This document shows, piece after piece, positions 25,641 to 47,258 of a stretch of DNA of 48,010 nucleotides; the stretch's first letter is position 1; each line of letters begins with the position of its first letter. Source of the stretch: Phycisphaerales bacterium (GTDB taxonomy: Bacteria; Planctomycetota; Phycisphaerae; Sedimentisphaerales; Anaerobacaceae); assembly GCA_020343675.1 (NCBI GenBank), contig CP070806.1:4425121-4473130 (forward strand). Reading direction: 5' to 3'. The notes beneath the pieces are model-generated. The model saw nothing but the letters and a program-made list of their open reading frames with translations. It was not told the DNA's origin and searched no databases. A program made the translations under genes and the position numbers.

Positions 25641-25803
25641 TGGGCAGATGGGCTTGTTCCTCGGACGTATGGCAAACAGCCGGATTCAGCATGGTGCCTG
25701 GAGAGTATTTGTTTATCGACTGTTGATTCTTGAATCTTGGAAGTCGAAGGACAGAGTGAGGTGCTCAGAGAGTCAGTTTTTTCTCGAATACAGGAAGTTT
25801 TCC

Positions 25804-25901: not shown

Positions 25902-27737
25902 ATGACTGCAAAGTCAGTAGTGGCAACCGATTTCATGGACAAGCCAAGTCAGTGTACTCGCGAAGCCCTCGTAGAGCAGATTCTCTGGCTGATACGGCTA
26001 CGGTGGATAGCCATCGGCGGGATGATCGGAGCGGCTCTGTTAGCCAGCCGTGTGTTTACTGTTCTGACCAACGTTGTACCCATCTATGGCTGCGCTGCCG
26101 CACTGCTGATCTCCAATATTCTGTATTTCCTGGCCGCAACAAAGAAGCCGGAGCAGGCAAGCCCGAGAGATCTGGTGTTGGGGATGATTCAAGTCGAACT
26201 GGATTTGTTCATACTCACGGCGGTTCTTCACTACTCGGGAGGCGTTGTCAATCCGTTTTTCCTTTTCTACATATTCCACGTCATCATCGCGGCCATCATA
26301 TTGCCGCGGAACCTGTCGTTCTGCGTCGGTCTGACGGCCATCCTGCTTTTTGGCCTCTTGGAGGTCAATGAGCTCAGCGGAGGTGCGCTGCTGAAAGGCT
26401 ATCATCCTCTTGAGCTTTCCGGCACCGGAGGCGTGTGGCGGGATCCGGTGTACGAGCTTGGAGTGTTCGGGGCGTTTGCCTGTACCGTGATGCTGGCCCA
26501 GTACCTGACCCGAATGATTATTACGCGAATGACCGCCAAGGAGCTCGAGGCGGCGCGAAATCACGATGTGCTCAGGGCCATCATCAACGCCATGTCGGAG
26601 GCACTCATATTTGTGACTAATGAGGGCAATGTGGCGATATGCAATCCGGCGGCCAAACTCTGGAAGAGGCAGAATGACCTTGGCGAACCGGGGCGTCCTC
26701 TCGACGATTTTCCCGCCCCTTTGGCCGAGGTGCTCAAGAGGCTTGTCTCTTCGGATGACAAAGCCGGGACGGTGGATACGTCCATAACATTTGAGACCTC
26801 CGGCCCACAGGCCAGCTATGTGGAAGCCAGGTCCTGCCCCGTCGTGGGTATCAACGGAAAGAAGCTGGGGAACGTCATTGTCGGCCAGGACCTCACCGAA
26901 CACAACAAGCTGGAGACCGATCTGCGGGAACGAACCGAGGAACTGACGGAGATCAACGAGATCCTGAAGATGTCCCAACTGGAGATGGCCCAGCGAGAGA
27001 AGATGGTCGCTATCGGGCAGATGGCCACAGGCATCGCGCATGAGATAGGCAATCCGCTGGCCAGCATCTCGTCGGTGGCGCAGTACCTGGTCCGAAAGCT
27101 CACCGTGCACGAACAGAAGGAACATCTGTTAGTGATACAGTATCATGTCAGCCGAATTTCAAATATTCTCAAGCGAATGCTGAGCCTGTCGCGTCCGGCC
27201 ACGAGCGAGTATCGATGGACGGATATCAACGAGCTTATCGAGAGCACGTTGTCCCTTGTTAATTTCGACAAGCGCGCGCGATCGGTGGCCATCCGGAATA
27301 TTGCCAATCCTGATGTGCCGACTGTGTGGCTGAATCCACAGCATTTCGAGCAGGTGTTTCTCAACATCTTTATCAATGCCCTGGACGCGATGGATGCCAA
27401 ACAGAACGATCAGGAGCATGTGCTTGAGATAACGAGGGAGCTGAAGGACGGAATGCTCGAGATTCGAACGAGTGACACGGGCGTCGGGATGAGCCCCGAA
27501 GTCTGCCGGCGGGCCTTCGAATCGTTCTTTACCACCAAGGAGATTGGCAAGGGGACGGGGCTGGGGCTGTTTATCAGCTACAACCTTATTACGGAGGTGG
27601 ACGGAACGATCGTGTTGGAATCGGAGCCGGGCAAAGGAACGACGGTTGTCATCCGGATTCCTCCGAAGCCCAAGAAAGATTTGATGGATGGACACGACGC
27701 CCAGAGCCGTTTTGGCAACCGGGCCCGGGCGGTCTGA
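25902..27737 (+). CDS. Membrane sensor histidine kinase (RegB-like membrane domain, PAS, HisKA, HATPase)
   Basis: 611 residues. Order: short cytoplasmic start, about six membrane helices (27-215), a PAS domain (about 225-340, AIINAMSEALIFVTNEG), a coiled linker, HisKA with H380 in TGIAHEIGNPLAS, and HATPase (DTGVGMS, GTGLGL). Between helices the sequence LHYSGGVVNPFFLFYIFH resembles the GG-x2-NPF loop through which RegB/PrrB senses the quinone pool. The catalytic half is of the NtrB/AtoS kind, and the next gene, 79 bp on, is an NtrC-type regulator, which is therefore its likely partner. The second kinase at 39776 has a related membrane domain. Redox or quinone sensing is inferred from the motif and from the haem and NQR genes around it. 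Confidence 0.88.
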   Translation: MTAKSVVATDFMDKPSQCTREALVEQILWLIRLRWIAIGGMIGAALLASRVFTVLTNVVPIYGCAAALLISNILYFLAATKKPEQASPRDLVLGMIQVELDLFILTAVLHYSGGVVNPFFLFYIFHVIIAAIILPRNLSFCVGLTAILLFGLLEVNELSGGALLKGYHPLELSGTGGVWRDPVYELGVFGAFACTVMLAQYLTRMIITRMTAKELEAARNHDVLRAIINAMSEALIFVTNEGNVAICNPAAKLWKRQNDLGEPGRPLDDFPAPLAEVLKRLVSSDDKAGTVDTSITFETSGPQASYVEARSCPVVGINGKKLGNVIVGQDLTEHNKLETDLRERTEELTEINEILKMSQLEMAQREKMVAIGQMATGIAHEIGNPLASISSVAQYLVRKLTVHEQKEHLLVIQYHVSRISNILKRMLSLSRPATSEYRWTDINELIESTLSLVNFDKRARSVAIRNIANPDVPTVWLNPQHFEQVFLNIFINALDAMDAKQNDQEHVLEITRELKDGMLEIRTSDTGVGMSPEVCRRAFESFFTTKEIGKGTGLGLFISYNLITEVDGTIVLESEPGKGTTVVIRIPPKPKKDLMDGHDAQSRFGNRARAV

Positions 27738-27816: not shown

Positions 27817-29205
27817 ATGATTAGGAAAATACTGCTGGCAGATGATGAAGTCACCTTTCGCAAGACCTTCGCGAAGGTCCTTGTGGAAGAAGGCATGTCC
27901 GTGAAGGAGGTGGGCAACGGAACGGATGCCCTGGATGCGGTTACGAAAGAGCGTTTCGCCGTGGCGATACTGGATATTCGGATGCCCGGAGCGGACGGCA
28001 TAAAAGTCCTGCGAGAGATCATGCGGATACGGCCCGAAACGCGCGTGATCATGATCACGGCCTACGGCACCGTCGAGATGGCCGTAGAGGCGGTGAAGCT
28101 CGGTGCATGTGATTACGTAATGAAGCCGGTCGTGATGGATGATGTCCTGACGAAGATCCGAAAGAACTTGCGGTACCTGGAGCTGCAGGAGGAAAACAAG
28201 CAGCTTAAGCAGGAGCTGAGCGGCCGGTTTGATATCGGACAAATTGTGGGCCAGTCTTCCGCGATGCAAAAAGTCCTTGAGATGATTCGCAAAGTGGCCC
28301 CGACCAAGAGCAACGTCCTGATCACAGGCAAGAGCGGCACCGGGAAAGAGTTAGTCGCGCGCGCCATCCATTCTCTGGGATCTCAGAACGGGAGCCGGTT
28401 CGTGGCCGTCAACTGCAGCGCGATCCCCGAGAGCCTGCTCGAGAGCGAATTGTTCGGACACAAGAAGGGTAGCTTCACGTCCGCCTTTCAGGACAAGAAG
28501 GGGCTGTTCGAGTGCGCACGCGGCGGGACTTTGTTCTTGGATGAGATCGGGTACATGCCGATGAGCTGCCAGGTGAAGCTGCTTCGCGCCGTCGAGCACA
28601 GGCAGATCATCCCCGTCGGTTCTACGGTGCCCATCGACATCGATTTGCGCTTGATTGCCGCCACCAACAAGGACCTGGCGAAAGAGATCAAGGCGGTGCG
28701 CTTTCGAGAAGACCTGTATTACAGGATGAACGTTGTGGGCATTCACCTTCCCCCGCTGCGCGAGAGGAAAGAGGACATTCCACTGCTGGTAGAACATTTC
28801 ATCGGGAAATACAATGCCGAGATGGGCAAGCACTGCGTTGGGGTCAGCGACGACGTGATGCGGCTGCTGATGAGTTATGACTGGAAGGGCAACATAAGAG
28901 AAATGCAGAACGTGATTGAGCGGGCCGTCATATTCTCCGAAGATGAAGTTATCAGGATGTCCGACATCGGACTGTTGGGATGCCACGTTGTTTCATTGAG
29001 TGAGGAAAACGAGAACCTTCAGTTGGCCGTCCGAGCCTACGAGCGCGAGCACATTTGCCGGGTATTGAACAAGTACGACTGGAACAAGGTCGAGGCGGCC
29101 AAGGCTCTGAACATTGGACTGTCGAGTCTTTACCGAAAGATTGACGAGCTGGACATCGATTCTCAAAAACGCAAGCGTGAGAGCAAGGGAACCGCGGTGG
29201 CTTAG
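27817..29205 (+). CDS. NtrC-family sigma-54-dependent response regulator
   Basis: 462 residues. Receiver 1-120 with acidic residues D9-D10, phospho-site D53 (ILDIRMPGADG) and K103. AAA+ domain about 140-370 with Walker A GKSGTGKE (171-178), Walker B LFLDEIG, and an arginine-finger region. The sigma-54 contact loop, normally GAFTGA, reads GSFTSA (218-223). A Fis-type helix-turn-helix closes the protein (VEAAKALNIGLSSLYRKIDEL). It is the cognate partner of the kinase just upstream. Regulators of this class bind dyads some 80-150 bp upstream of promoters, so the repeated TTCTCA-N4-TGAGAA sites in this window are possible targets, though no clear -24/-12 promoter was found beside them. Confidence 0.93.
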   Translation: MIRKILLADDEVTFRKTFAKVLVEEGMSVKEVGNGTDALDAVTKERFAVAILDIRMPGADGIKVLREIMRIRPETRVIMITAYGTVEMAVEAVKLGACDYVMKPVVMDDVLTKIRKNLRYLELQEENKQLKQELSGRFDIGQIVGQSSAMQKVLEMIRKVAPTKSNVLITGKSGTGKELVARAIHSLGSQNGSRFVAVNCSAIPESLLESELFGHKKGSFTSAFQDKKGLFECARGGTLFLDEIGYMPMSCQVKLLRAVEHRQIIPVGSTVPIDIDLRLIAATNKDLAKEIKAVRFREDLYYRMNVVGIHLPPLRERKEDIPLLVEHFIGKYNAEMGKHCVGVSDDVMRLLMSYDWKGNIREMQNVIERAVIFSEDEVIRMSDIGLLGCHVVSLSEENENLQLAVRAYEREHICRVLNKYDWNKVEAAKALNIGLSSLYRKIDELDIDSQKRKRESKGTAVA

Positions 29206-29271: not shown

Positions 29272-29772
29272 ATGAAAGTCACAAGGTCTTCCGTTTATGC
29301 GTTGCACGCGTTGATGTACATGGTCAGGCACAGCACGCAACTGCCCGCCACAGCGGCCACCATCGCCAGGGCCGAAGGGATGCCGTCCGATTATCTGGTC
29401 AAAATATTTCAGCAGCTCGTCAAGGCGCGCTTTGTCAGAGCGGTAAGAGGCAAGAAAAGGGGATACGTTTTCGTCAAATCGCCCGAGGAGATCAGCCTGC
29501 TGGAGTTGTTTGAGGCAATTGCGGGCCATTCGCTATTCGACGATTGCTTTTTGAGACACTGTGAATGCGGGGGGACTGTGGAGAATTGTCGCATCTTCTC
29601 GGTTTGGTCGCAGGCTACGCGTCAGATCAGGGAGCTGCTCGCCCAGACATCGGTGGCCGCCGCCGCGTGGAGCCATCCCGAGCATCGCTTCCTGAGCCTG
29701 TCCGAATCACTCACCGGCCCCGGGGCAAACGAGGGAACAGACCCGGCGGAATCCCAAATAGCCGCGTTGTAA
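29272..29772 (+). CDS. Rrf2-family iron-sulfur transcription regulator
   Basis: 166 residues. The protein has a winged helix with the Rrf2 features YALHALMYMV, YLVKIFQQLVKA and RGKKRGYVF. Four cysteines (C92, C97, C99 and C106; CFLRHCECGGTVENC) provide the usual ligands of a [2Fe-2S] or [4Fe-4S] sensor, as in IscR, NsrR or RsrR. It would respond to iron-sulfur status, nitric oxide or redox state. It sits 66 bp after the NtrC-type gene and converges on hemL, so it is a candidate regulator of the haem genes around it. The C-terminal tail after 120 is unremarkable. What it senses cannot be read from sequence. Confidence 0.9.
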   Translation: MKVTRSSVYALHALMYMVRHSTQLPATAATIARAEGMPSDYLVKIFQQLVKARFVRAVRGKKRGYVFVKSPEEISLLELFEAIAGHSLFDDCFLRHCECGGTVENCRIFSVWSQATRQIRELLAQTSVAAAAWSHPEHRFLSLSESLTGPGANEGTDPAESQIAAL

Positions 29773-31134: not shown

Positions 31135-32517
31135 TTACTGCGACAAGATCTCGGCATCGATGCCATGTTTGGCCGCTTCCGCCTGCGTTGGCGCGCCGAG
31201 GCAGCAGGCCTTGATGTGGGAGGGCACCCGGCCGAATCTTTTTACGAACGCCCTCGCCGTCGAGCCGCTGGTGAAAAGGATCTTGTCGATGTGTTCCAGG
31301 TCCACATCGGCGGGCTCTACTTCGACGGTTTGATAAACGGGCGCCTCTTCGACCATTGCCCCCATCGCGGCCAGGCCCTCGCGCAATTCACGGGAAGCAG
31401 CAGCAGCCTGGGGCAGAAGCACTTTCTTATCTCGCATATCGCGCTTCTTGAATTCTTCGAGCAGGCCCGCGCTGGATTCTGTATCCGGAACGAGGTCGGC
31501 CAGAATGCCGAAGCTTGTCAGCCTTCGGGCGGTCGTCCTTCCGATGACGGCGACTTTTGCCGAACAAAGCGCCCGGGCATCGAGGCCGCTCTGCCGGAGC
31601 CGCTCAAAAAAGAATCTCACGCCGTTGGCGCTGGTGAACACAAGCCAGTTGAAACCTTCGAGCGCCTTGATCATGCCATCAAGCTTCGAGGTGTCTTCCA
31701 GAGGCACGCACTTAACGATGGGCCGATGCACAATCGTACCGAGGTGTGTGTATTTTTCGGGATGCGTGCCGAGGACAAGAATCCTTGGCTTGCCGCCGAA
31801 CCAGTTCAGCTTCTCGTGAAGCTCTACGACTTTGCCCACGATGAAAATAGCGGGAGTGGACAAGCCGGCTTTCTTTACCGTCTGAACAAAACTCTCCAGG
31901 AAGCCCGTAACGACTCTTTGGTTGTAAAGCGTGCCTCTCTCCACCGCGGCAATCTTCGTCTGCGGGGACCAGCCTGCTTTGAGCAAAGAGCCGATGATCT
32001 TCTGAATGTTGCCGACACCCATAAGAAAAATGATGGTGCCGGCGTTTGGGATTTCAATGTCCTTCTGGGCTTTACGGTGTCCGGTTACGATGGCGACATT
32101 GGGCGTGAAATCTCGATGGGTCGGCGGGATTCCGGCGTATGAAGGAGCCGCCAACGCGCTGGTGACACCCGGCACCACTTCAAAATCGACACCCGCCTGC
32201 GCACACGCTTCGGCTTCCTCACCTCCCCGGCCAAAGAGAAACGGGTCGCCGCCCTTGAGGCGAACGACGATTCTGCGCATCCCGGCCTTCTCGATAAGCA
32301 GCGCATTGATCTGGTCTTGTGACATCGTATGCCGGCTGGCGAATTTGCCCACCGTGATGATTTCGGCTTCGGCCTTGGCCAGGTGCAGCAGCTCGGCCGG
32401 GATGAGATGATCGTGGAGAATGACATCGGCCTGGCAGATCAGCCCATAGCCCTTGAGCGTAATCAGCTCGGCGTCACCGGGGCCTGCGCCGACAAGATAG
32501 ACTTTTCCCTTTGGCAT
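31135..32517 (-). CDS. cobA-hemD: Uroporphyrinogen-III C-methyltransferase / uroporphyrinogen-III synthase fusion
   Basis: 460 residues, two domains. Residues 1 to about 240 are the SAM-dependent methyltransferase (VYLVGAGPGDAELITLKG, then RLKGGDPFLFGRGGEE and VPGVTSALAAPSYAGIP) that makes precorrin-2. Residues about 247-455 are HemD (VFTSANGVRFFFE, VAVIGRTTARRL, ILFTSGSTARAFVKRFG), which closes the tetrapyrrole ring. The fusion is well known in clostridia and other anaerobes. It feeds the sirohaem branch needed by AhbA and AhbB. HemB, HemC and the enzyme that oxidises precorrin-2 and inserts iron are not in this window. It is transcribed divergently from ahbA, with an operator-like dyad about 55 bp upstream. 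Confidence 0.95.
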   Translation of the reverse strand: MPKGKVYLVGAGPGDAELITLKGYGLICQADVILHDHLIPAELLHLAKAEAEIITVGKFASRHTMSQDQINALLIEKAGMRRIVVRLKGGDPFLFGRGGEEAEACAQAGVDFEVVPGVTSALAAPSYAGIPPTHRDFTPNVAIVTGHRKAQKDIEIPNAGTIIFLMGVGNIQKIIGSLLKAGWSPQTKIAAVERGTLYNQRVVTGFLESFVQTVKKAGLSTPAIFIVGKVVELHEKLNWFGGKPRILVLGTHPEKYTHLGTIVHRPIVKCVPLEDTSKLDGMIKALEGFNWLVFTSANGVRFFFERLRQSGLDARALCSAKVAVIGRTTARRLTSFGILADLVPDTESSAGLLEEFKKRDMRDKKVLLPQAAAASRELREGLAAMGAMVEEAPVYQTVEVEPADVDLEHIDKILFTSGSTARAFVKRFGRVPSHIKACCLGAPTQAEAAKHGIDAEILSQ

Positions 32518-32570: not shown

Positions 32571-32586
32571 TTCTCAAATGTGAGAA
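32571..32586. promoter_or_regulatory. Operator-like dyad TTCTCA-N4-TGAGAA, site 1 (cobA-hemD / ahbA)
   Basis: A perfect 6-4-6 inverted repeat (TTCTCAAATGTGAGAA) lies in the 259-bp divergent gap between cobA-hemD and ahbA, just after a TTGACA. The same dyad recurs at 33345 and 46369. It lies about 54 bp from the cobA-hemD start and about 60 bp upstream of the proposed ahbA -35 box. The binding protein is unknown; CRP/FNR-like, Rrf2 and NtrC-type proteins are all possible. Confidence 0.6.
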
Positions 32587-32644
32587 AGCAACGGCATCAT
32601 TCACATGAACGCCAGGAACAAACCATTGTCCGACGAGCCTCGGC

Positions 32645-32673
32645 TTTACTTTTCGCTGTCATTCAACTATAGT
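32645..32673 (+). promoter_or_regulatory. Predicted sigma-70 promoter of ahbA
   Basis: TTTACT (32645-32650), a 17-bp spacer and TATAGT (32668-32673). The -10 box lies in the first unit of a 13-bp direct repeat. The predicted start point is about 95 bp before ahbA. Confidence 0.5.
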
Positions 32674-32687
32674 GTTCACCTATAGTA
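32662..32687 (+). repeat. 13-bp direct repeat over the ahbA promoter
   Basis: TTCAACTATAGTG (32662-32674) is followed at once by TTCACCTATAGTA (32675-32687), matching at 11 of 13 positions. It overlaps the predicted -10 box, so it may be a regulator site or a duplicated -10 element. Confidence 0.6.
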
Positions 32688-32776
32688 ATTTGAGAGCCAG
32701 GCGTCAAGTGAAAACATGAGGCCGGTCGTGGTAGCCGCCTCATCGAGAGGATTTGTCAGAGGGCAGAAAGGACATT

Positions 32777-33241
32777 ATGGATAGTATCGACCGCCAAATA
32801 CTCCAGGAGCTTCAAGACAATTTTCCTCTCAAGGAAAAGCCCTATGAGGTTTTGGCCGAGCGGTTGCAGATTCCCACAGAGGACCTCTGGGACCGGATTC
32901 AGCGGATGATCGATGAGGGAGTAATTCGCCGGATCGGGGCAAGCGTTGACTCCAGGAAGTTCGGTTTTCAAAGCACGCTGGCTGCCGTGAGCGTCGAGCC
33001 CGAACTCGTGGAGCGTTCCGCCGAAGTCATCGGCCGGTTTCATGAGGTGACCCACAGCTATCTTCGCGATGATGTCTTCAACATCTGGTTCACCCTAATT
33101 GCAATTGATCAGAAGCGAATAGAGGAGATTCTTGAGCATATCCGCAGTTCTCTATCGATCGAGAAGTCAAAGGTCCTCAATCTGCCGGTCAAGCATCTGT
33201 TCAAGCTGGATGCCCGTTTCAGCGTTTCCAGGGGGCCTTGA
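32777..33241 (+). CDS. ahbA: Sirohaem decarboxylase subunit, AhbA-type
   Basis: 154 residues from ATG 32777, which has AAAGGA just upstream and matches the family start MDSIDRQILQELQDNFPL. A frame-consistent TTG at 32753 adds eight odd residues. The winged helix runs to GVIRRIGASVDSRKFGF; the second domain has THSYLRDDVFNIWFTLIAI, the pattern of AhbA/NirD-type subunits. With AhbB (20536) it should form the enzyme that decarboxylates sirohaem. The two subunit genes usually lie side by side; here they are 12 kb apart. It is divergent from cobA-hemD, with the NQR operon following about 370 bp later. Which of the two is A and which is B rests on motif memory and could be swapped. Confidence 0.82.
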   Translation: MDSIDRQILQELQDNFPLKEKPYEVLAERLQIPTEDLWDRIQRMIDEGVIRRIGASVDSRKFGFQSTLAAVSVEPELVERSAEVIGRFHEVTHSYLRDDVFNIWFTLIAIDQKRIEEILEHIRSSLSIEKSKVLNLPVKHLFKLDARFSVSRGP

Positions 33242-33344
33242 TACCTGGGGATAGGTCCTCCGGGAATTTGCAGGGATATCGTTGGAACGGTGTTTCCTGC
33301 CGGAATCTGGGCAGTGCTTCGGAATCACGTCACTCTTCGAAAGA

Positions 33345-33360
33345 ATCTCAGAATTGAGAA
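33345..33360. promoter_or_regulatory. Operator-like dyad, site 2 (upstream of nqr operon)
   Basis: ATCTCAGAATTGAGAA matches the 6-4-6 dyad with one mismatch (a TCTCA-N4-TGAGA core). It is centred about 70 bp before the predicted nqr -35/-10 region, a typical activator distance. The gap 33242-33611 otherwise holds only the predicted promoter. Confidence 0.55.
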
Positions 33361-33409: not shown

Positions 33410-33438
33410 TTGAACAGGGTGGTTCGTTTGTATAGAAT
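33410..33438 (+). promoter_or_regulatory. Predicted sigma-70 promoter of the nqr operon
   Basis: TTGAAC (33410-33415), a 17-bp spacer and TAGAAT (33433-33438). The leader to nqrA would be about 165 nt. Confidence 0.5.
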
Positions 33439-33611
33439 AGTGCGCGTATAACCGCGTTTGGGATACGGTTTGCAGGGCAACAGGCGCAGACGGCGCTGTT
33501 CTGTCATCGGATGGAGCAGTTCAAGGGTAATGTATGCTGCGCCCTCGTGACTTGGATAGTTCCCGGCGGCCTGCGGCAGCCTGAAGGATATTGGGCCTTG
33601 AAGTGCACAGG

Positions 33612-35177
33612 ATGGTGACTTCGTATGATGGGGCCGGATCTCCGGAGTTGTTGCCGGTTGTCGTACCGTCCCCTTCAGAGTACCTGACCCCGTATCAGGG
33701 TGTGTCAGTTACTCCGAGGATGAAGTTTGAATCATTTAGTGGGGAAGCTAAGAAAGTGAAATTCAGAGGCGGCTACAATATACTGCTCAAAGGAAAGCCC
33801 GAGGGCGCTGTAAAGGTGATGCCGGAACCGAAGGTCCTATATCTTCCCTTGCGCAGTGAGCGTTTCACATTCAGCGAAGTTCTCGTCAAGGATGGAGATC
33901 GAGTCAACGGCGGCGACGCCCTGGCCAGGGATCCGGACAACCACGACGTACCTTTGCTCACTCCGCGTGCCGGGACCGTTCGCCTCAAGGCTCTCGAGAA
34001 TCACATCGTGCTTGAAGACGTTGCGCATCGTGACGAGCATGCCGATATCGCTGAAGAGGAAATGTCGCACATCGCGCAGGAAATGGGCGCCGGAGGCATC
34101 AAGCGATACAAGCTCCTGTCGCTCGGAGCCTGGCAGTTCTTTTATGACGCCTTCACAGGGGCACTGCCGGACCCGCTCGGGACGCCGCAGGCGATCATCA
34201 TCTCCACGCTGAGCCTGGAACCGTTTGTCACCCGGGGAGACGTGCTGCTTCACAAGCGACTGCTGAACTTCACGCGCGGTCTGGAGCATTTGCAGTCTCT
34301 TCTGGAATATCAGCCCATTTATCTGGCGATGCCCGATGTCAGTTCTGAATTTGCCAATCTGGTTCGGAACCAGATTCGGGGTTATGCCTGGGCGAAAATG
34401 CTGGAAGTACCGCTGACCTACCCCTATGACAACTTTGCCATTCTTGCTCGAAGGCTGGAGCTCAGGCGGGACAAGGGGCCTATCTGGGGTGTTCGAACCG
34501 AGGGCGTCCTGGCGGTGGACCGCGCCCTGACTATGACCAAACCTTGTACGGTGAGGATCGTTTCCGTCGGCGGAATGGGCGTCAACGGGCCCGCTCACCT
34601 GAAGGTGGTGCCGGGCTATCCCATTGAGAGAATCAGGGAAAAGTACGTCTTTGAGCCGGCGGCGAGAGTGATCAACGGCGGCGTCCTGACCGGACGCGCT
34701 TTCACCGCAGAGGATGTGGGGATTGATGCCGAGTGCAGAGGCATAACAGTTCTTCCCGAATTGAGAGAGAGAGAATTTCTGGGTTTCATTCGGCCGGGTT
34801 GGAGCCGGAGTTCGTACTCGGATTGTTTCTTAAGCTCCATGAGGAAGAGATTCGCGGAACGACTCACCACAGGCATGCGAGGGGAAGAGCGGCCCTGCGT
34901 AGCGTGCAACTTCTGCGAGGAAGTTTGTCCCGCCGGTATTATGCCTTACCTCGTCCACAAATACCTGTATGCGGACTTGATTGAGGAAGCGGAGCAGGCC
35001 CGGGTGGATTTGTGCGTTGAATGCGGATTGTGCTCGTATGTCTGCCCATCGAAGATAGACGTGAGAAAGCAGCTCATCGAAGCTAAGGTTCTTATCGAGA
35101 AAGAGAAGGAAGAGATACGTCAAGAACAGTTGCGTCAGGAAGAAGCACGCAAACAAGCTGAGGAGAAAACCGAGTGA
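33612..35177 (+). CDS. nqrA: NqrA-type subunit with an RnfC-like double [4Fe-4S] C-terminus
   Basis: About 521 residues. The N-terminal half is NqrA-like: FRGGYNILLKGKP, YLPLRSERFTFSEVLVKDGD and LTPRAGTVRL, then an SLBB-like part with VSVGGMGVNGPAHLKV. The C-terminus differs: two ferredoxin motifs, C429-x2-C432-x2-C435-x3-C439-P and C468-x2-C471-x2-C474-x3-C478-P, then a charged Lys/Glu/Gln helix. Classical NqrA (about 450 residues) has no such clusters, but RnfC does. As first gene of an nqrA-F operon it should dock on the complex and may accept electrons from ferredoxin or pass them to quinone. The start is uncertain: TTG 33591 (weak GAAGGA), ATG 33612 and ATG 33720 are all in frame, and homology would fit 33720 best. 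The stop overlaps the nqrB GTG. Confidence 0.82.
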   Translation: MVTSYDGAGSPELLPVVVPSPSEYLTPYQGVSVTPRMKFESFSGEAKKVKFRGGYNILLKGKPEGAVKVMPEPKVLYLPLRSERFTFSEVLVKDGDRVNGGDALARDPDNHDVPLLTPRAGTVRLKALENHIVLEDVAHRDEHADIAEEEMSHIAQEMGAGGIKRYKLLSLGAWQFFYDAFTGALPDPLGTPQAIIISTLSLEPFVTRGDVLLHKRLLNFTRGLEHLQSLLEYQPIYLAMPDVSSEFANLVRNQIRGYAWAKMLEVPLTYPYDNFAILARRLELRRDKGPIWGVRTEGVLAVDRALTMTKPCTVRIVSVGGMGVNGPAHLKVVPGYPIERIREKYVFEPAARVINGGVLTGRAFTAEDVGIDAECRGITVLPELREREFLGFIRPGWSRSSYSDCFLSSMRKRFAERLTTGMRGEERPCVACNFCEEVCPAGIMPYLVHKYLYADLIEEAEQARVDLCVECGLCSYVCPSKIDVRKQLIEAKVLIEKEKEEIRQEQLRQEEARKQAEEKTE

Positions 35178-36277
35178 AATGGTTGTTAAAGGTCATTGAT
35201 GCCGTTCGCCCCAACTTCGAGGAAGGCGGCAAGCTGCGACTTCTCAATCCCGTGTTCGAGGCGCTGGAGCATGTGTTCTTTGCCCCGGGCACGACAACAC
35301 TGGAGGCCCCTCATGTTCGGGACCCGATCGATCTGAAGCGTTTTATGTCGATGGCGATCATCTCGGTCGTTCCCACGGTATTGGCGGCGTTCTACTTTTT
35401 CGGGCTCCGGTTTGTCGCCATGATCATCGTTTCCTATGCGGCGGGCCTGACAGTGGAGGCCCTCTTTGCGATAGTACGCAAGGAAGGCATTAACGAGGGC
35501 TTTTTCGTGACGGGCATACTCTTCCCGCTGATTCTGCCGCCCAGTATGCCTCTTTGGATGGTGGCTCTGGGGGTGGCGTTTGGCGTGTTCATCGGCAAGG
35601 AGTTATTCGGCGGAACGGGACGAAACGTCTTCAATCCGGCCCTTGTCGGTCGCTGCTTTCTGTCGCTGGCCTATCCGAAAACCATGGCGAAAAGTTGGGT
35701 GGAGCCCAGTGACTACCTTGCGGGCGCGCTGACGGACTGGGTCGGCCCCTCCCTGGACGCCGTGAGCGGGGCCACACCCCTGGCGCTGGCCAAGCAGGGA
35801 GAAATGGGAGCTGTCTCGCATTTGTTCCTGGGAAGTGTTCCGGGGAGCGCCGGGGAGACCTCGGCGGTTTTGATCCTGCTCGGCGGCGTGTTCCTGCTGT
35901 TCACCCGCGTCGCCAGTTGGCGAACGGTCGTGAGCATTCTCGGCTCATTCATTGTCTTGACCGGCGCCCTGGTGGCGGGCGGCGCGGTGAGCTACCCGAT
36001 GGCCGGCGTGTTCGGCCCGGTGATGTGGCATGTGTTTGCGGGAGGATTGCTTTTCGGCGTGTTCTTTATGGCGACCGACCCGGTGACAAGCCCGACGACG
36101 AATGCGGGCAAGTGGCTCTACGGCATCGTCATCGGTTCGACGACGGTTCTGATCCGGAACTTCACCGGATACGTCGAGGGCGTGACATTCGCCATCTTGT
36201 TGGGCAATATTGTCGCCCCCATTTTCGATGAAATCGTCATTGGCATTCGCATCAGGAGGCTCCGAAGTGAAGGGTAA
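35174..36277 (+). CDS. nqrB: Na+-translocating NADH:quinone reductase subunit B
   Basis: 367 residues with about ten membrane helices. The GTG start overlaps the nqrA stop (GTGA) and follows GAGGAG. NqrB features: NEGFFVTGILFPLILPP, GKELFGGTGRNVFNPAL, and the flavinylation motif D195-A-V-S-G-A-T201, where FMN is bound to T201. Also the FMATDPVTSPTT stretch. NqrB forms part of the sodium channel and carries FMN and riboflavin. RnfD is the homologue in RNF complexes, but the N-terminus and GTGRNVFNPAL favour NqrB. The ApbE enzyme needed to attach FMN is not in the window. Confidence 0.95.
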   Translation: MKWLLKVIDAVRPNFEEGGKLRLLNPVFEALEHVFFAPGTTTLEAPHVRDPIDLKRFMSMAIISVVPTVLAAFYFFGLRFVAMIIVSYAAGLTVEALFAIVRKEGINEGFFVTGILFPLILPPSMPLWMVALGVAFGVFIGKELFGGTGRNVFNPALVGRCFLSLAYPKTMAKSWVEPSDYLAGALTDWVGPSLDAVSGATPLALAKQGEMGAVSHLFLGSVPGSAGETSAVLILLGGVFLLFTRVASWRTVVSILGSFIVLTGALVAGGAVSYPMAGVFGPVMWHVFAGGLLFGVFFMATDPVTSPTTNAGKWLYGIVIGSTTVLIRNFTGYVEGVTFAILLGNIVAPIFDEIVIGIRIRRLRSEG

Positions 36278-36878
36278 CGTTTACACGCTTTGTTATGCCG
36301 CGGTGCTTGGCTCTGTTTGTGCCCTGCTGCTGACCGCTGCGGCCAGCTTTACCGCGCCGCACAGGAAAGCCAACGCCGAGGCAGAAGAAACTCTGAACAT
36401 TCTTCTGGCCTTAAACGTGCCTTTGGATGGCAAGTCATCCCCCGACGAATTAGCTGACATATATGAGGATAATGTCACTGAGGGCCAACGCGGGGATGTC
36501 ACGACTTATGTTTACGCGCCGCCTCCGCCGGATCCAAACGGCGCAATCGCGGTTCGGTTTGCCGGTCCCGGTTTGTGGGGTCCGATCAAGGGCTTCCTGG
36601 CTCTTGACCCGAAAAGAACGAAGATTCGCGGGATCACGTTTTACGAGCAGGAAGAGACACCCGGTCTCGGTGGTGATATCGTCAATCCGTCGTTTCGCGA
36701 CAAGTTTGTTGGGCTGATGACACGTGATGAAGCCGGAAACCCGGGAATAGTCATTAGCAGCAGAGGCGAGGATGCACCGAACAAAGTGGACGGCATAAGC
36801 GGGGCGACGATGACCTGTGATAAAGTGCAGGAGATGCTGAACGAAGCCATCCAGAGCCTTGTTGAGGAGAAGCAATAG
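36267..36878 (+). CDS. nqrC: Na+-translocating NADH:quinone reductase subunit C
   Basis: 203 residues from the GTG at 36267, chosen because AGGAGG lies 7 bp upstream and NqrC proteins begin just before such a helix (NVYTLCYAAVLGSVCALLLTAAA). It overlaps the end of nqrB by 11 bp. The FMN motif is D175-G-I-S-G-A-T181 near the C-terminus, the covalent FMN site. YEQEETPGLGGDI is the other family signature. One N-terminal anchor places the FMN domain outside the membrane. NqrC is shorter here than the usual 255 or so residues, mainly between the anchor and the FMN domain. Confidence 0.93.
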   Translation: MKGNVYTLCYAAVLGSVCALLLTAAASFTAPHRKANAEAEETLNILLALNVPLDGKSSPDELADIYEDNVTEGQRGDVTTYVYAPPPPDPNGAIAVRFAGPGLWGPIKGFLALDPKRTKIRGITFYEQEETPGLGGDIVNPSFRDKFVGLMTRDEAGNPGIVISSRGEDAPNKVDGISGATMTCDKVQEMLNEAIQSLVEEKQ

Positions 36879-36880
36879 CA

Positions 36881-37549
36881 ATGGCAGACAGTCAACAGTT
36901 AGCTTGCGGACCCTGTGCCAGCCAGGGATTGTGCGGCGGCAAAGGGCTACTTACTTTGAAAGAAGGGGCCTGGGCGAACAATCCACTGGCGATTCAGATG
37001 TTGGGCATTTGTTCTGCCCTGGCCGTGACAAACCGGCTTGAGAACTCGCTGGTCATGGGAGGGGCACTTATTTTTGTTTGCGTCGGCTCGAACCTGCTTG
37101 TTTCCCTGCTGCGCAAGGTCACGCCGCACCGGATACGCATGATTGCCGAAGTCGCCATCATTGCGACCTTTGTGATACTGTTCGACCAGTTTCTCAAAGC
37201 TTTCTACTGGGACATGTCGAAACAGCTTGGCCCGTATGTCGGCCTGATCATCACGAACTGCATCGTCATGGGGCGCGCCGAGGCCTTCGCGCTGCAAAAT
37301 CCACCCATGCTCTCTATCGTCGATGGCATAGCCAACGGCGTGGGCTACGCCGTAGTCTTGGGAATCATCGGCTTCTTCAGAGAGCTGCTGGGTGCCGGAG
37401 AGATCCTGGGACGCGAGATTCCCGGCTTTAGCTCCTGGTACACACCCAACCAGCTAATGATTTTGGCTCCAGGGGCGTTTTTTGCGCTCGGCATCGTGAT
37501 CGGGATATTCAACGCCATCAAAGGCCCGGAGCCTGAGGAGAACAAGTAA
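36881..37549 (+). CDS. nqrD: Na+-translocating NADH:quinone reductase subunit D
   Basis: 222 residues, six membrane helices. It has the subunit-D features NNPLAIQMLGICSALAVT and LIITNCIVMGRAEAFAL; C44 and the cysteine in ITNC are the usual ligands of the intramembrane iron-sulfur centre shared with NqrE. An extra N-terminal patch before the first helix carries C9, C12 and C18 (ACGPCASQGLCGGKG), which I do not know from standard NqrD. It starts 2 bp after nqrC, and its stop overlaps the nqrE ATG (TAATG). Confidence 0.95.
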   Translation: MADSQQLACGPCASQGLCGGKGLLTLKEGAWANNPLAIQMLGICSALAVTNRLENSLVMGGALIFVCVGSNLLVSLLRKVTPHRIRMIAEVAIIATFVILFDQFLKAFYWDMSKQLGPYVGLIITNCIVMGRAEAFALQNPPMLSIVDGIANGVGYAVVLGIIGFFRELLGAGEILGREIPGFSSWYTPNQLMILAPGAFFALGIVIGIFNAIKGPEPEENK

Positions 37550-38139
37550 TGAGCGAAACATCGGCGTGGGTCATATTCATTGCGGCGATATTCACAAACA
37601 ACATTCTGCTGACGAACTTTCTCGGCATGTGCTCGTTTATCGCCTGTTCCGGCCAGATCAAAACCTCGCTGGGTTTGGGGACTGCCGTCATATTCGTGAT
37701 GATTATGACGACGATGATAAACTACGTGGTTTACCACTTTGTCCTGGTGCCTCTGAGCCTCATTCATCTGCAATTCATTGTTTTCATAGCTGTCATCGCA
37801 GCCTTTGTGCAATTGGTGGAGATGTTCGTCGAACGGTTCAGTCCGAAGCTGTACTTTGCTTTGGGAATATTTCTGCCTCTGATTACGGTCAACTGCGCTA
37901 TTCTCGGCGCCTCTCTGTTCATGATCATCCGGAACTACAGCTTCATACAGTCCGTCGGTTTCGGCCTGGGGGCGGGAATCGGCTGGGCGGTTGCCATCGT
38001 GCTGTTGGCCGGTTTGAGACAGAAGATGACGTACAGCCATGTCCCGAAGCCATTTCAGGGCGTGGCGATAGCCATGATCGTTACGGGCGTGCTCGCCATG
38101 GCCTTTATGGGTTTTGCCGGAATGGTGGCCATCCAATAG
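37549..38139 (+). CDS. nqrE: Na+-translocating NADH:quinone reductase subunit E
   Basis: 196 residues, six membrane helices in the inverted topology to NqrD. Typical NIDLLTNFLGMC-like start (ILLTNFLGMCSFIACS) with C28, and ITVNCAILGASLFM with the second conserved cysteine, which together with NqrD hold the membrane iron-sulfur cluster. RVFAE-type end (GVAIAMIVTGVLAMAFMGFAG). Overlaps nqrD by one base and precedes nqrF by 9 bp. Confidence 0.96.
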   Translation: MSETSAWVIFIAAIFTNNILLTNFLGMCSFIACSGQIKTSLGLGTAVIFVMIMTTMINYVVYHFVLVPLSLIHLQFIVFIAVIAAFVQLVEMFVERFSPKLYFALGIFLPLITVNCAILGASLFMIIRNYSFIQSVGFGLGAGIGWAVAIVLLAGLRQKMTYSHVPKPFQGVAIAMIVTGVLAMAFMGFAGMVAIQ

Positions 38140-38148
38140 GAGTGCTCA

Positions 38149-39249
38149 ATGGATTATTCGGTTTACTTGTATTCAATACTATCTTTCTCCGGTCTGGTCG
38201 TGCTTCTGGCGGCCGGGTTGATGATTGCTGAACGGTTCCTGATCAACTACGGGATCTGCAAGCTTGACATCAATGCCGGCGAAAAACCGCTCGAGGTCCA
38301 GGGCGGGCAGACGCTCCTGTCGTGTTTGTACGCCAATGAAATCTTTATCCCATCTGCATGTGGCGGCAAAGGCTCGTGCGGACACTGCAAGCTCACCGTG
38401 ACTTCCGGCGGAGGGCCCGTGCTTCCCACAGAAACCCCGTATTTGTCGCGGAAGGAAGTTCGCTCCGGCGCCAGATTGGCCTGTCAGGTCAAGGTGCGAG
38501 AGGACATCTACGTTCGCATCCCCGAAGATTACCTGAACGTGAAGCTCTTCTCCGCTGCGGTGGAAAGCACCCGTAGTCTGACCCACGACATCAAGGAGAT
38601 TAGGCTGAAATTAAACGATCCTCCGGAGATTTCCCAGCGACCCGGTCAATATGTGCAGGTTCAGGCCCCATCCCCCGACGGTCCGGTCTTTCGCGCGTAC
38701 TCTATTAGTACTCCCGCTCATGAGCCGACCGTTGTGGAGCTTGTTGTCCGATTGGTGCCGGGGGGCATTGGCTCAACCTATCTTCACAATTTGCATGTGA
38801 ATGATGGGGCGGCTTTTACAGGTCCCTATGGAGAGTTTCACCTGAACGAGGATCCGTCTGTTGAAATTGTCTGTGTCGGAGGGGGCGCCGGAATGGCACC
38901 GATGAAGAATATCATCTACACGATCTATGACCGATGGCCTGATCGTTCGTGCTGGCTGTTCTTCGGCTGCCGGACGACGCAAGACATCTTCTACCTTGAC
39001 CAATTCAAGGAGCTTGAACGCAAGCATTCCAATTTTCATGTGGTCTATGCCCTGTCCGACGAGTTGGGACCTGAAGAAAAGTGGGATGGCGAAACCGGTT
39101 TCATTCATCTGTCGGTGGACAAATGCCTGGAAGCCGGGGTGGCTCGGCAGGCCTTCCTCTGCGGGCCGCCTTTGATGATTGAGGCGGTCACCAGGGTCCT
39201 TGAAGAAAAAGGCCTGCCTCCGGAAGACATCTTCTACGATGAGTTCTAA
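38149..39249 (+). CDS. nqrF: Na+-translocating NADH:quinone reductase subunit F
   Basis: 366 residues. One N-terminal helix (7-30), a [2Fe-2S] ferredoxin domain with C71-x5-C77-x2-C80 and C112 (CGGKGSCGHC and ARLACQ), then an FAD-binding domain (FRAYSISTPAHEP in place of RxYS) and an NADH domain (GGGAGMAPMKNI, FFGCRTTQDIFYLDQF, FLCGPPLMIEAV). It oxidises NADH and passes electrons to the other subunits. It is somewhat shorter than the usual 405-410 residues. Last gene of the nqr operon; a GC-rich hairpin follows. Confidence 0.96.
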   Translation: MDYSVYLYSILSFSGLVVLLAAGLMIAERFLINYGICKLDINAGEKPLEVQGGQTLLSCLYANEIFIPSACGGKGSCGHCKLTVTSGGGPVLPTETPYLSRKEVRSGARLACQVKVREDIYVRIPEDYLNVKLFSAAVESTRSLTHDIKEIRLKLNDPPEISQRPGQYVQVQAPSPDGPVFRAYSISTPAHEPTVVELVVRLVPGGIGSTYLHNLHVNDGAAFTGPYGEFHLNEDPSVEIVCVGGGAGMAPMKNIIYTIYDRWPDRSCWLFFGCRTTQDIFYLDQFKELERKHSNFHVVYALSDELGPEEKWDGETGFIHLSVDKCLEAGVARQAFLCGPPLMIEAVTRVLEEKGLPPEDIFYDEF

Positions 39250-39278: not shown

Positions 39279-39375
39279 TGATAAGTACATCTTGCGGCGC
39301 TGGCACGAGATATTGGATTTATTGCAGGCGAATAATACTGTTCGCGGAAATGCACGAAATACTTCTGAGGCAAGT

Positions 39376-39774
39376 ATGGGAAACAGCAAAGTTTTGATTG
39401 TGGACGACGATCCTGATTTCGTTGCGGTTATGAAGGTTGTCCTGGAACGCGAGCAGTACACTGTAGCGACAGCATCCGACAGGGAGGAAGGCATGAGCCA
39501 GATTCAGGCGGGTAAGCCGGACCTGGTTATCATGGATGTGATGATGTCCACGTGGTCGGACGGATTTGAAATGTCCAGGAAATTGAAAAAAGACCCGCGG
39601 TATAAGGATATCCCCATTCTGATGCTGACCGGGGTCGAGCAGAAAACGGGCATCGGTTTCAAGTCCACTGCCGGAGACCCGGAATGGCTGCCGGTGAATG
39701 GATTCCTGGACAAACCCGTCGAACCACAGGTTTTGCTGGACGAGGTCAAGAGACTCCTGTGCCGGAAAGAATGA
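39376..39774 (+). CDS. Single-domain response regulator (receiver only)
   Basis: 132 residues from ATG 39376, which has GAGG 5 bp upstream; the frame stays open to 39292 but without a ribosome site. D10-D12 and D54 (VIMDVMMSTWSDG) form the acidic pocket, T87 is in MLTG and the lysine is in GFLDKPVE. There is no output domain. Between strand 4 and the lysine there is an extra loop of about 20 residues (KTGIGFKSTAGDPEWLPVN), seen in some receiver families. The stop is one base before the kinase start, so it is almost certainly the partner of that kinase, or a shuttle between this kinase and another regulator. Confidence 0.9.
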   Translation: MGNSKVLIVDDDPDFVAVMKVVLEREQYTVATASDREEGMSQIQAGKPDLVIMDVMMSTWSDGFEMSRKLKKDPRYKDIPILMLTGVEQKTGIGFKSTAGDPEWLPVNGFLDKPVEPQVLLDEVKRLLCRKE

Positions 39775-39775
39775 C

Positions 39776-41206
39776 ATGGAGCCGGTCCCCGAAAACATCA
39801 GACTGCTCAAAGGTGCTTACTGGCTGGCCAAACTCCGTTGGATAGCCATTGTTTATGTTGTTGTCGGGACCTACGTCGCGCACAAGATGTTGGGTGTGAA
39901 CTTGAACGACGGCGCCCTATACGTTATTGCAGGTTTGCTTGTGGTGTACAATACAACAGTGTTGGTCATGTTAAATCGTCTGATGCAGGCCGATCAGCAG
40001 GTGCCGTGCAGGGCGGCAAACAAGATTGCCTCTGCGTACAATATGGTGGTGTGGGTGCTGTTCAATCGTTTCACAAGGATTGACCCGCACGTCTCGTGCA
40101 AAGCGGTCAAGAGAATCATCAATTTCCAGATCTGCGCGGATCTATTGCTTCTGACGGTTCTGCTGCATTTCTCCGGCGGCATTGAGAACCCGCTGGTTTT
40201 CTACTTCATCTTTCATATGATTATCGCGAGCATTCTGCTTTCGATGCGAGAGAGTTATCTGCAGGCGACTTTTGCCGTTTGCCTTTTCGGTCTTCTGGTC
40301 TTGCTTGAATACGAGCAGATTGTACCTCACTACTGCCTGACGGGGTTTGTGTCCACGTGCTTGCGTCAGGAGAAGCTGTACATGCTCGGCACGTTCTTCG
40401 TTTTCACAACGGGGGTTTATCTGGCCGTGTATATGGCCAATTACATCGCCATAAGGCTTAAGCATACCGAGTACGCCTACAGGCAGGCCAACGCAATGCT
40501 TCAAGAGAAGGACCGGATCAAAGACGAATACGTCTTTCGTGTCACCCACGATATCAAGGGGCATCTGGCAACGATACGAGGGTGCCTTTCGGTGATTGTG
40601 AATCGATTAGCCGGACCTCCGGGCGGCGTTCAGGAGGCGGATCTGATCAGGCGGGCGCACAAGCGGACCGTCAAGCTCGCCAATTTTGTCAAAGCACTAT
40701 TGCAGTTGACCCAGATGCGACTGACCGACGAATCAGAGATGGACGTATGTTCGCTGCCCGAGATCCTGCAGTGTGCGGTCGGCGCCGTGGAGGCCAGGGC
40801 GGAAGAGAAATCCATCACCCTGGATTGCACGGTCGAATCGTCCGTGGGGGATATTTTTGGCGACCGGTTTTCCATAGAAGAAATGGTTGCGAACCTACTC
40901 ATGAACGCCATCGCGTACACGCCTGAAAAAGGAACCGTCTCGCTGAGTGCGAGAAGCGACGGAGACGGCGTGCTCGTTGAGATTTCAGATACGGGCATCG
41001 GCATACCCGAGCAGGAGCAGGGCAGGGTATTTGACGAATTCTACCGCGCGGCGAACGCCCGGCAACTCGAGCGGGACGGCACTGGCCTCGGACTGTCGAT
41101 CGTCCGGCTTATTGTGGGAAGACACGGTGGTGAGATACAAGTCGAGAGCAAGGAAGGCTGCGGCACCCGGTTCAGGCTCAGGCTGCCGCAGGGCCAGGGG
41201 TCATGA
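39776..41206 (+). CDS. Membrane sensor histidine kinase with RegB-like sensor domain
   Basis: 476 residues. ATG 39776 lies one base after the receiver stop. The membrane part (about 15-215) is related to the kinase at 25902: both begin with LRWIAI after a short lead, and both have a loop (here LLHFSGGIENPLVFYFIFH) like the quinone-binding GG-x2-NPF loop of RegB. Residues 57-116 are a tandem duplication of 30 residues with a cysteine in each copy (VPC and VSC). HisKA has H258 in THDIKGHLATIRG; HATPase has DTGIGIPEQEQGRVFDEFYRA and GTGLGLSIVRLI. There is no PAS domain. It sits between nqr and the cytochromes, so quinone or electron-flow sensing is likely but unproven. Confidence 0.9.
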   Translation: MEPVPENIRLLKGAYWLAKLRWIAIVYVVVGTYVAHKMLGVNLNDGALYVIAGLLVVYNTTVLVMLNRLMQADQQVPCRAANKIASAYNMVVWVLFNRFTRIDPHVSCKAVKRIINFQICADLLLLTVLLHFSGGIENPLVFYFIFHMIIASILLSMRESYLQATFAVCLFGLLVLLEYEQIVPHYCLTGFVSTCLRQEKLYMLGTFFVFTTGVYLAVYMANYIAIRLKHTEYAYRQANAMLQEKDRIKDEYVFRVTHDIKGHLATIRGCLSVIVNRLAGPPGGVQEADLIRRAHKRTVKLANFVKALLQLTQMRLTDESEMDVCSLPEILQCAVGAVEARAEEKSITLDCTVESSVGDIFGDRFSIEEMVANLLMNAIAYTPEKGTVSLSARSDGDGVLVEISDTGIGIPEQEQGRVFDEFYRAANARQLERDGTGLGLSIVRLIVGRHGGEIQVESKEGCGTRFRLRLPQGQGS

Positions 41207-45303: not shown

Positions 45304-46383
45304 ATGTTGTGGCCATCACGCAAAGGAAGGCCTCTGAAGATTCTTGTCCTTGGTCTGTTGGTGCAGACTGCTCTGTTAACATCTGCGGGCCGGGCGGAAC
45401 TGCGAAAAGTGAAAGTCGGCGATACGATGCCCGAGTTCTCCCTGCCGGACGCGACCGGAGCAACGTTCACGTACAAGCACGGCGCCAGCAAAGTCTTAAC
45501 TCTCACCTTTCTTCCTACGGTCCAGAGTCGATTCGAACGGGCGATTGCAGATATCGAAGCCGTCGCTGGCGTTCTTCCGGAGACCGCTGAAGGCTTAGGT
45601 TTTGCAGGCGTGATCAGCGGCTCGGCGGGAAAAGAACTGTTGAAGTCTTCCGGGTCCGGCTCCAAACCCGGTTTTCGCATATTGCTTGACGGCCAGTATC
45701 ACTTGTGGGGCACACTTGGTGTCGTCGCAGCGCCCACAGTCGTGATCGTTGGAAAGGACGACAGGGTCTTGTGGATAAAGGCCGGATACGGCTATGACTT
45801 CGTGCCCGTCGTGCGTGCCTACCTGAACCAGGCGATGGGCATTGCACAGGAGACCGCTCCCGAGCAGGCACAGCACGTCAAAGCCGTGACGAATGACACG
45901 GTTGTGGCCCGACTCCAGAGGCATCTTCAGATGGCGAGAATTCTCGAGCAGAAAGGTCGTCTCGAATCGGCCATTGCCGAGGTACAAAAGGCCATCGAAC
46001 TCGATCCCGACTCGATTGAGCCACCCCTTGTGCTGGGCGAGCTGTTCTGCAGGTCCGGCCGCAACAAAGAAGCGCTGGAATTGACGGGCAAACTCAAAGC
46101 CGTCAGAAAGACCCACAAAGCCAGACTGCTCCTGCTATCCGGCTGGGCCAGACGTCAAATGGGCGAGCTGGAGCCGGCGGAGAAACTCTTGATCGAAGCA
46201 ACGACCCTTGATCCAGAATCCGCGAGGGCCCTGTTTGAGCTGGGAAAGGTCTATCAGGCCCAGAGCCGGACAGGCAAGGCAATGGAATCCTACCGCAAAG
46301 CCCTGACGCTGGTATTCGACACCTCTGATAGGGTAGAGGTCTCGAACCGAGGGCAAGGCTCCGATCCTGTTTCTCAAAAATGA
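45304..46383 (+). CDS. Exported thioredoxin-like / TPR protein without active-site cysteines
   Basis: 359 residues, signal peptide (ILVLGLLVQTALLTSAGRA). Residues about 35-175 have a TlpA/peroxiredoxin-type fold: VGDTMPEFSLPDATG, then TLTFLPTVQSRFERA where the CxxC would stand, and a retained cis-proline segment VVAAPTVVIVGKDDRVLWI. No cysteine is left at the active site, so it cannot do normal thiol chemistry. Residues about 195-345 hold three to four TPR helices (AIAEVQKAIELDPDS; ALFELGKVYQAQSRTGKAMESYRKAL). It may act as a scaffold or chaperone for cytochrome assembly. AAGGCGG precedes the start. Its last bases carry an operator-like dyad. Confidence 0.85.
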   Translation: MLWPSRKGRPLKILVLGLLVQTALLTSAGRAELRKVKVGDTMPEFSLPDATGATFTYKHGASKVLTLTFLPTVQSRFERAIADIEAVAGVLPETAEGLGFAGVISGSAGKELLKSSGSGSKPGFRILLDGQYHLWGTLGVVAAPTVVIVGKDDRVLWIKAGYGYDFVPVVRAYLNQAMGIAQETAPEQAQHVKAVTNDTVVARLQRHLQMARILEQKGRLESAIAEVQKAIELDPDSIEPPLVLGELFCRSGRNKEALELTGKLKAVRKTHKARLLLLSGWARRQMGELEPAEKLLIEATTLDPESARALFELGKVYQAQSRTGKAMESYRKALTLVFDTSDRVEVSNRGQGSDPVSQK

Positions 46384-46388
46384 GAAAC
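46369..46388. promoter_or_regulatory. Operator-like dyad, site 3 (upstream of tetrahaem cytochrome)
   Basis: GTTTCTCAAAAATGAGAAAC is a perfect 8-4-8 inverted repeat and shares the TTCTCA-N4-TGAGAA core of sites 1 and 2. It overlaps the stop codon of the thioredoxin/TPR gene and is centred about 120 bp before the predicted -35 box of the next gene. It lacks a T tract, and its AT-rich stem argues against a terminator. Confidence 0.6.
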
Positions 46389-46497: not shown

Positions 46498-46526
46498 TTG
46501 ACTTGTGTGGGGCTCTTGCTTATAAT
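46498..46526 (+). promoter_or_regulatory. Strong predicted sigma-70 promoter for the tetrahaem cytochrome gene
   Basis: TTGACT (46498-46503), a 17-bp spacer and a perfect TATAAT (46521-46526). The leader would be about 145 nt. It is the best promoter match seen in the window. Confidence 0.7.
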
Positions 46527-46679: not shown

Positions 46680-47258
46680 ATGAAGTTGAGGCTTGCGAAG
46701 GTTGGCTTGGTGGCCGTTCTGGTTGGGCTGTTGGCACAGACGGCCGTGAGGGGCGTCGCACACTCTGATCTGTTCGGCTGCAATGGGTGCCATACGCCGC
46801 ACAACGCGGATGCCCTGCCGGGCGTACCATTGTGGAACGGTCTTGAGACACAAACGACATTCACGATGTATTCCAGCGACTCATTCCAGGGGACCATCGA
46901 CGGCCAGCCCAGTGGGAACTCCAGGCTGTGTCTGGGCTGCCACGACGGCGCCAACCCGGACTTCGCCTGGATGAACCCGGAACACGCGTTTGGCGCCGAC
47001 GACTTGACCTCTTCACACCCCGTTTCGTTCGTGTATGATTCAGGCTTGGCCGTCCTGGACGGCGCATTGAAGGATCCTTCGGAGGCGAGCACGCTCGGCG
47101 CAACGATCGCTGAAGACCTGCTCGACGGTGAGAGCAAGCTGCAGTGCGCCAGTTGCCATGATATACATTCGTCCGGCATTGGGGACAGCCTGCTACGGGG
47201 TTACGATTACGGCAACGGACACGGCCCCCAGCTGTGCCGTATGTGTCACCTCAAGTAG
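46680..47258 (+). CDS. Exported tetrahaem cytochrome c
   Basis: 192 residues from ATG 46680, with GGAG 8 bp upstream and an immediate signal peptide (MKLRLAKVGLVAVLVGLLAQ). An in-frame ATG at 46620 would spoil the signal peptide. Four haem sites: CNGCH, CLGCH, CASCH and CRMCH, the first in the CNGCHTPHN pattern of small multihaem cytochromes found with extracellular or porin-type conduits. A long middle part (about 70-145) has no haem. It is transcribed from its own promoter and is probably the first gene of a further unit with the NHL-type lipoprotein. Confidence 0.92.
   Translation: MKLRLAKVGLVAVLVGLLAQTAVRGVAHSDLFGCNGCHTPHNADALPGVPLWNGLETQTTFTMYSSDSFQGTIDGQPSGNSRLCLGCHDGANPDFAWMNPEHAFGADDLTSSHPVSFVYDSGLAVLDGALKDPSEASTLGATIAEDLLDGESKLQCASCHDIHSSGIGDSLLRGYDYGNGHGPQLCRMCHLK

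Follow-up and report, generated by a model that had tools for sequence, protein, structure and literature searches.

Which DNA signal, and which protein reading it, could tie haem supply to the respiratory chain in a Phycisphaerales bacterium? The window, meaning the whole 48,010-nucleotide stretch analysed here, comes from a genome assembled as one contig of 5.06 Mb (82% complete; G000). It carries three copies of one inverted repeat, upstream of genes for haem synthesis, Na+-NQR and a c-type cytochrome:

32571–32586, no strand assigned: dyad 1, TTCTCAAATGTGAGAA, an exact TTCTCA-N4-TGAGAA in the cobA-hemD/ahbA divergent promoter
33345–33360, no strand assigned: dyad 2, ATCTCAGAATTGAGAA, upstream of nqrA, one mismatch
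46369–46388, no strand assigned: dyad 3, GTTTCTCAAAAATGAGAAAC, a perfect 8-4-8 repeat with an exact 6-4-6 core at 46371–46386
31135–32517, minus strand: cobA-hemD fusion, candidate target
32777–33241, plus strand: ahbA, sirohaem decarboxylase subunit, candidate target
33756–39249, plus strand: nqrABCDEF, candidate target
46680–47258, plus strand: small multihaem c-type cytochrome, candidate target

The initial annotation had described these copies correctly, two of them exact, the one at 33345 with one mismatch and the third a perfect 8-4-8 repeat, and no further copy occurs in the window at up to two mismatches. Its statement that all copies lie upstream of haem, NQR or cytochrome genes also holds, with the qualification that dyad 3 overlaps the stop codon of an upstream TPR gene (ORF end 46383) and is about 300 bp from the start of the small cytochrome gene.

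Chance and the repeated dyad

The pattern had been considered too rare to arise by chance. For a pre-specified sequence this is right: chance would give 0.003 exact copies in the window and 0.35 in the 5.06-Mb genome, which contains three exact sites, two of which are the copies that defined the motif. TTCTCA-N4-TGAGAA was, however, chosen after the fact, and some repeated perfect 6-n-6 dyad (n from 0 to 10) is present in 21 of 60 shuffled windows, with n = 4 in 3 of the 60. Because about one-third of shuffled windows hold such a repeat, it is not significant from the window alone. Allowing one mismatch yields 22 sites in G000, compared with about 12 expected from a Markov estimate and 2 for the reversed dyad pattern, which served as the control. 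Genome-wide counts at this threshold do not separate genomes with the candidate regulator from those without it, and we dropped them as evidence because enrichment over the reversed pattern is about equal in genomes that lack the regulator. A search of the window against Rfam gave no match, and a literature search on the dyad half-sites returned nothing relevant.

The repeats could on these grounds be chance dyads, or transcription terminators given that dyad 3 is located at a gene end. The comparative data presented below already contradict this explanation: the position of the dyad is conserved across diverged promoters, and the tandem spacing and A/T centre are features that lay outside the selection of sites. 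Terminators are further disfavoured by the lack of a T-run after the dyad arms, and we regard the explanation as highly improbable. Judged by sequence comparison, the motif is established through its conserved position and not through counts.

Conserved sites and their target genes

The comparison covered nqrA orthologue loci in relatives, the named records being Phycisphaerae/Sedimentisphaerales MAGs. Sites with at most one mismatch occur within 700 bp upstream of nqrA at eight named loci, compared with none for the reversed pattern. The dyad recurs in the cobA-hemD/ahbA divergent promoter of many relatives (including L054, L061, L065, L067, L075 and L076), and a counterpart of dyad 3 occupies the equivalent place in G064 (L047). 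The 89 family genomes yielded about 60 listed exact sites for the dyad and about 8 for the reversed pattern. The motif is thus found upstream of nqrA, cobA/ahbA and cytochrome orthologues, where the initial annotation had suggested looking for it, and its presence at the same promoters in relatives supports the proposal that one regulator may control haem supply and the electron chain together.

The apparent target set is wider than first claimed, taking in hdr, further cytochromes and the operon of the regulator itself. With names assigned through similarity to window genes or by sequence inspection, the dyad stands before the sensor kinase/NtrC operon (L075, L076 and G034), rrf2 (L075 and G097), an nrfH-like cytochrome gene (L075), RR2/HK2 (G012), a 371-aa gene followed by RR2 (G023; G064 has a similar gene), the small cytochrome gene after the TPR gene (window, G064 and G012), a hexahaem cytochrome gene (G000, G098 and G101), an hdr operon (G000 and G099) and an acetyl-CoA synthetase-like gene (G000). 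Several exact sites inside unrelated coding genes, in relatives and at 116550 in G000, look like background. Among 42 placed sites the central two bases, a feature outside the selection, are 94% A/T, and A or T also prevails at the flanking position, giving the refined consensus wTTCTCA-nWWn-TGAGAAw. From these genome comparisons we conclude that the dyad is genuine and serves as a regulon site conserved within a group of Phycisphaerae.

Several of these loci have features of their own. In genus g35 (G097–G101) a thioredoxin-like gene and a gene divergent from it have a dyad between them (L066, L175, L177 and L179); each side has a sigma70-like promoter at about 24 bp, which puts these sites out of helical phase with the other targets. 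The ahbA leader contains a conserved box, GTCAAGTGAAAA (32703–32714, plus strand), which is kept in about ten relatives, mostly at a near-fixed distance from the dyad, and has no Rfam match; a second copy in G000 (L158:7908) adjoins the dyad near the acetyl-CoA synthetase-like gene. Also in G000, tandem dyads 33 bp apart lie upstream of an hdrCB-like operon (L161:3006–3054; G000:C1:748005–748053). In NqrA (33756–35177) the C-terminal part is ferredoxin-like, with two CxxCxxCxxxCP motifs, and the protein matches RnfC as well, an NQR/RNF-like mix.

Promoter architecture around the dyad

A close second dyad occurs at 31, 32 or 33 bp, approximately three helical turns, at seven loci (hexahaem cytochrome three times, hdr twice, nrfH and the small cytochrome), and the reversed pattern gives none at these distances. 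Outward-facing sigma54 −24/−12 elements are found 100–180 bp from the dyad in 9 unique cases where 1.14 are expected (p = 3e-6); the sigma54 promoters lie 106–166 bp downstream of dyads and include the near-perfect elements CGGCACGCCAATTGCA and TGGCACGGCTATTGCT. Such elements recur before the same gene in different genomes, at the small cytochrome in G012 and G008 and at the hexahaem cytochrome in G000 and G098. At its simplest, a sigma54 enhancer consists of tandem activator sites placed upstream of the promoter (PMC4740811), and the dyads appear to follow the architecture of an NtrC-type enhancer (UAS), with dyad sites often in tandem and sigma54 promoters downstream of some. Most ahbA and nqrA sites, which speak against an NtrC-type reader in this respect, have no sigma54 promoter and a sigma70-type promoter instead. 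The elements in the window are:

32645–32673, plus strand: ahbA sigma70-type promoter, TTTACT-N17-TATAGT, 58 bp after dyad 1
33410–33438, plus strand: nqrA sigma70-type promoter, TTGAAC-N17-TAGAAT, 49 bp after dyad 2
33459–33474, plus strand: weak sigma54-like element, TGGGATACGGTTTGCA, with no counterpart at the equivalent place in relatives
46498–46526, plus strand: small cytochrome sigma70-type promoter, TTGACT-N17-TATAAT, 111 bp after dyad 3

The distance from the dyad to the ahbA promoter is 58–60 bp in L075, L076, L054, L067 and L171, which have TTTACA-like −35 boxes; the exceptions are G096 (about 29 bp, read by eye) and L089 (68 bp). For the nqrA promoter, of TTGAAC-TAGAAT-like sequence, it is 46–49 bp in L025, L027, L088, L026 and L089, and the same spacing is found before RR2/HK2-type genes in L166 and L169. 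At ahbA and nqrA alike, the distance has been kept while the spacer sequence diverged. The promoter of the small cytochrome gene differs between genomes: it is of sigma54 type in G012 and G008, sigma70-like in G064, and reads TTGACT-N17-TATAAT in the window.

A CRP/FNR-family protein acting as a class-I activator was among the readers first proposed, and the dyad centres estimated at the best-scoring promoters (near −50.5, −81.5, −92.5 and −102.5, those of the nqrA and ahbA sites being about −92 and −102) speak for it. The dyad half-site, however, lacks the usual CRP/FNR core, and the HTH_Crp_2 model, positive in 14 of 14 control genomes, has no above-cut-off match in G000 and finds only weak or unrelated HTH matches in relatives. 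The lack of such proteins in the assemblies contradicts a reader of this family, and we give this idea a negligible chance. The positions of the dyads are suggestive of a common helical phase; the clustering is seen at the best-scoring promoters only, with the thioredoxin-type gene at 24 bp off phase. A global helical-phase test over all predicted sigma70 promoters was not significant (R 0.04–0.06), so we limit the claim to fixed sigma70 spacing.

The candidate reader, its kinase and known systems

Two regulators named as candidates by the initial annotation are encoded side by side in the haem cluster, together with a sensor kinase:

25902–27737, plus strand: sensor histidine kinase with a RegB/PilS-like membrane part, GGVVNPF at residues 113–119
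27817–29205, plus strand: NtrC-family response regulator, proposed dyad reader, with receiver, sigma54-activator AAA+ domain with GSFTSA loop and Fis-type HTH
29272–29772, plus strand: Rrf2-family regulator with Cys cluster, rival reader

We favour, with moderate confidence, the NtrC-family protein as the reader of the dyad enhancer, paired with the kinase encoded before it. It is preferred because it has the full domain set (PF00072, PF00158 and PF02954, in that order), because its orthologues form a clear clade of 16, because sites precede its own operon in relatives and because it alone explains the combination of tandem sites with sigma54 promoters. Genomes with the orthologue hold on average 2.06 exact sites, compared with 0.37 in the others (p = 8e-6 for two or more sites). 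Against this assignment, the sigma54-contact loop is present as a variant, with GSFTSA replacing GAFTGA in 16 of 16 orthologues; the kinase operon in the window has only a degenerate dyad, with four mismatches, near 25781; and G021, G096, G009 and G013, all draft MAGs, have well-placed sites and no NtrC orthologue above 47% identity. Nor is it usual for NtrC proteins to activate a sigma70 promoter from one site positioned about 92 or 102 bp ahead of the start. A fifth apparent exception, G079, was withdrawn, as a 100-N assembly gap lies inside its kinase gene.

The adjoining rrf2 gene could instead encode the reader and govern this regulon, perhaps in response to an Fe-S or redox signal. Its product has a Cys cluster (CFLRHCECGG..NC), its profile over the 89 genomes is at least as good as that of the NtrC-type protein (p = 4e-8), and the dyad upstream of rrf2 in L075 and G097 is accompanied by a sigma54 promoter. 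Both correlations with site number arise in part because the two genes are neighbours and the genomes are related. G034, however, has sites and the NtrC-type regulator yet no close Rrf2, and in G021, G096, G009 and G013 the Rrf2 homologues are weak (37% identical at most), so that all five genomes bear sites without a close Rrf2. To our knowledge, tandem spacing with sigma54 coupling fits no known Rrf2 pattern, and we consider an Rrf2 reader improbable.

These four genomes, with sites and no close relative of either protein, would also suit a third regulator common to all motif-bearing genomes, for which the kinase/NtrC operon and rrf2 would be mere targets and the fixed sigma70 spacing, resembling that of class-I activators, would be natural. 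No candidate for it was found, CRP/FNR proteins being essentially absent; the tandem sites and sigma54 promoters indicate an enhancer-binding protein; and the exceptions are draft MAGs, one more having been explained by the G079 gap. A third regulator is in our view unlikely, if a little less so than Rrf2.

The membrane part of the kinase matches RegB over residues 28–157, and GGxxNPF, which in RegB senses ubiquinone (PMC8191878), is kept in the kinase orthologues whose sequence includes the membrane part. As the kinase carries this quinone motif, a quinone-redox signal is plausible, with the state of the quinone pool as the likely input. We do not file the kinase as RegB, because the redox-box cysteine is absent after the H-box (no Cys in about 80 residues, read from the sequence). 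Between nqrF and the cytochromes (39292–41206), beside the gene for a receiver-only protein, lies the gene for another kinase whose membrane part is RegB/PilS-like; the motif of this kinase reads GGIENPL, and GGIENPF or GGVENPF in some relatives. For sigma54, two models found no rpoN match in the G000 assembly, whereas rpoN is above cut-off in 75 of the 89 family genomes, including 15 of 15 other genomes with the NtrC-type regulator. Real loss of the gene is less likely than a segment missing from this 82%-complete assembly, in which the hexahaem cytochrome retains a sigma54-like element.

In the mechanism that we propose, the membrane kinase would sense the redox state of the quinone pool and the regulator would be phosphorylated and bind dyads as dimers. 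At cytochrome and hdr promoters it would bind in tandem, 31–33 bp apart, several of these having a downstream sigma54 promoter, and at ahbA, nqrA and its own operon it would bind single sites at a fixed distance from sigma70-type promoters. The effect would be joint induction of Ahb-route haem synthesis, Na+-NQR, multihaem cytochromes and heterodisulfide reductase. We infer three of these steps: the NtrC protein as reader, an activating and not a repressing effect, and the quinone signal. The complete picture is more tentative than the choice of reader: a RegB-like quinone-sensing kinase and an NtrC-type activator might use one enhancer word at sigma54 promoters (at variable distance, often in tandem) and at sigma70 promoters (at fixed distance, singly), with the same gene switching promoter type between species. 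One switch may thus build the whole respiratory chain, a candidate master control over the Ahb haem route, Na+-NQR, multihaem cytochromes and Hdr in Phycisphaerae that are represented here mainly by metagenomes. If true, this would connect a quinone-sensing motif already known with an NtrC-type activator, and it would provide orthologous promoters where an enhancer-binding protein seems to work with sigma54 or with sigma70 depending on the species.

The closest parallel is NtrC/NtrB. Escherichia coli NtrC at glnAp2 is likewise a receiver, AAA+ and Fis-type HTH protein acting from tandem palindromic sites that lie about three turns from each other and precede sigma54 promoters; at glnAp2 the spacing is 32 bp. 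The system described here differs in its recognition sequence (that of E. coli NtrC is TGCACCAnnnTGGTGCA; PMC8743547), its haem and respiration targets, its GSFTSA loop and the many targets with sigma70-type promoters at fixed spacing. NtrC proteins of Rhodobacter capsulatus and Caulobacter have an altered sigma54-contact loop and act at sigma70 promoters (PMC10274813); those proteins have lost the loop, whereas here it is present as GSFTSA and some targets have sigma54 promoters. RegB/RegA (PrrB/PrrA), which exerts global control of electron-transport genes (PMC8191878), shares the kinase membrane part with GGxxNPF, but here the partner is an NtrC-type AAA+ protein instead of RegA, the redox-box cysteine is not seen and the kinase core is closer to the AtoS/ZraS type. 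The regulon appears to be of a known kind, an NtrC-type enhancer system, made unusual by its RegB-like sensor, its haem, NQR and cytochrome targets and its apparent use of both promoter types.
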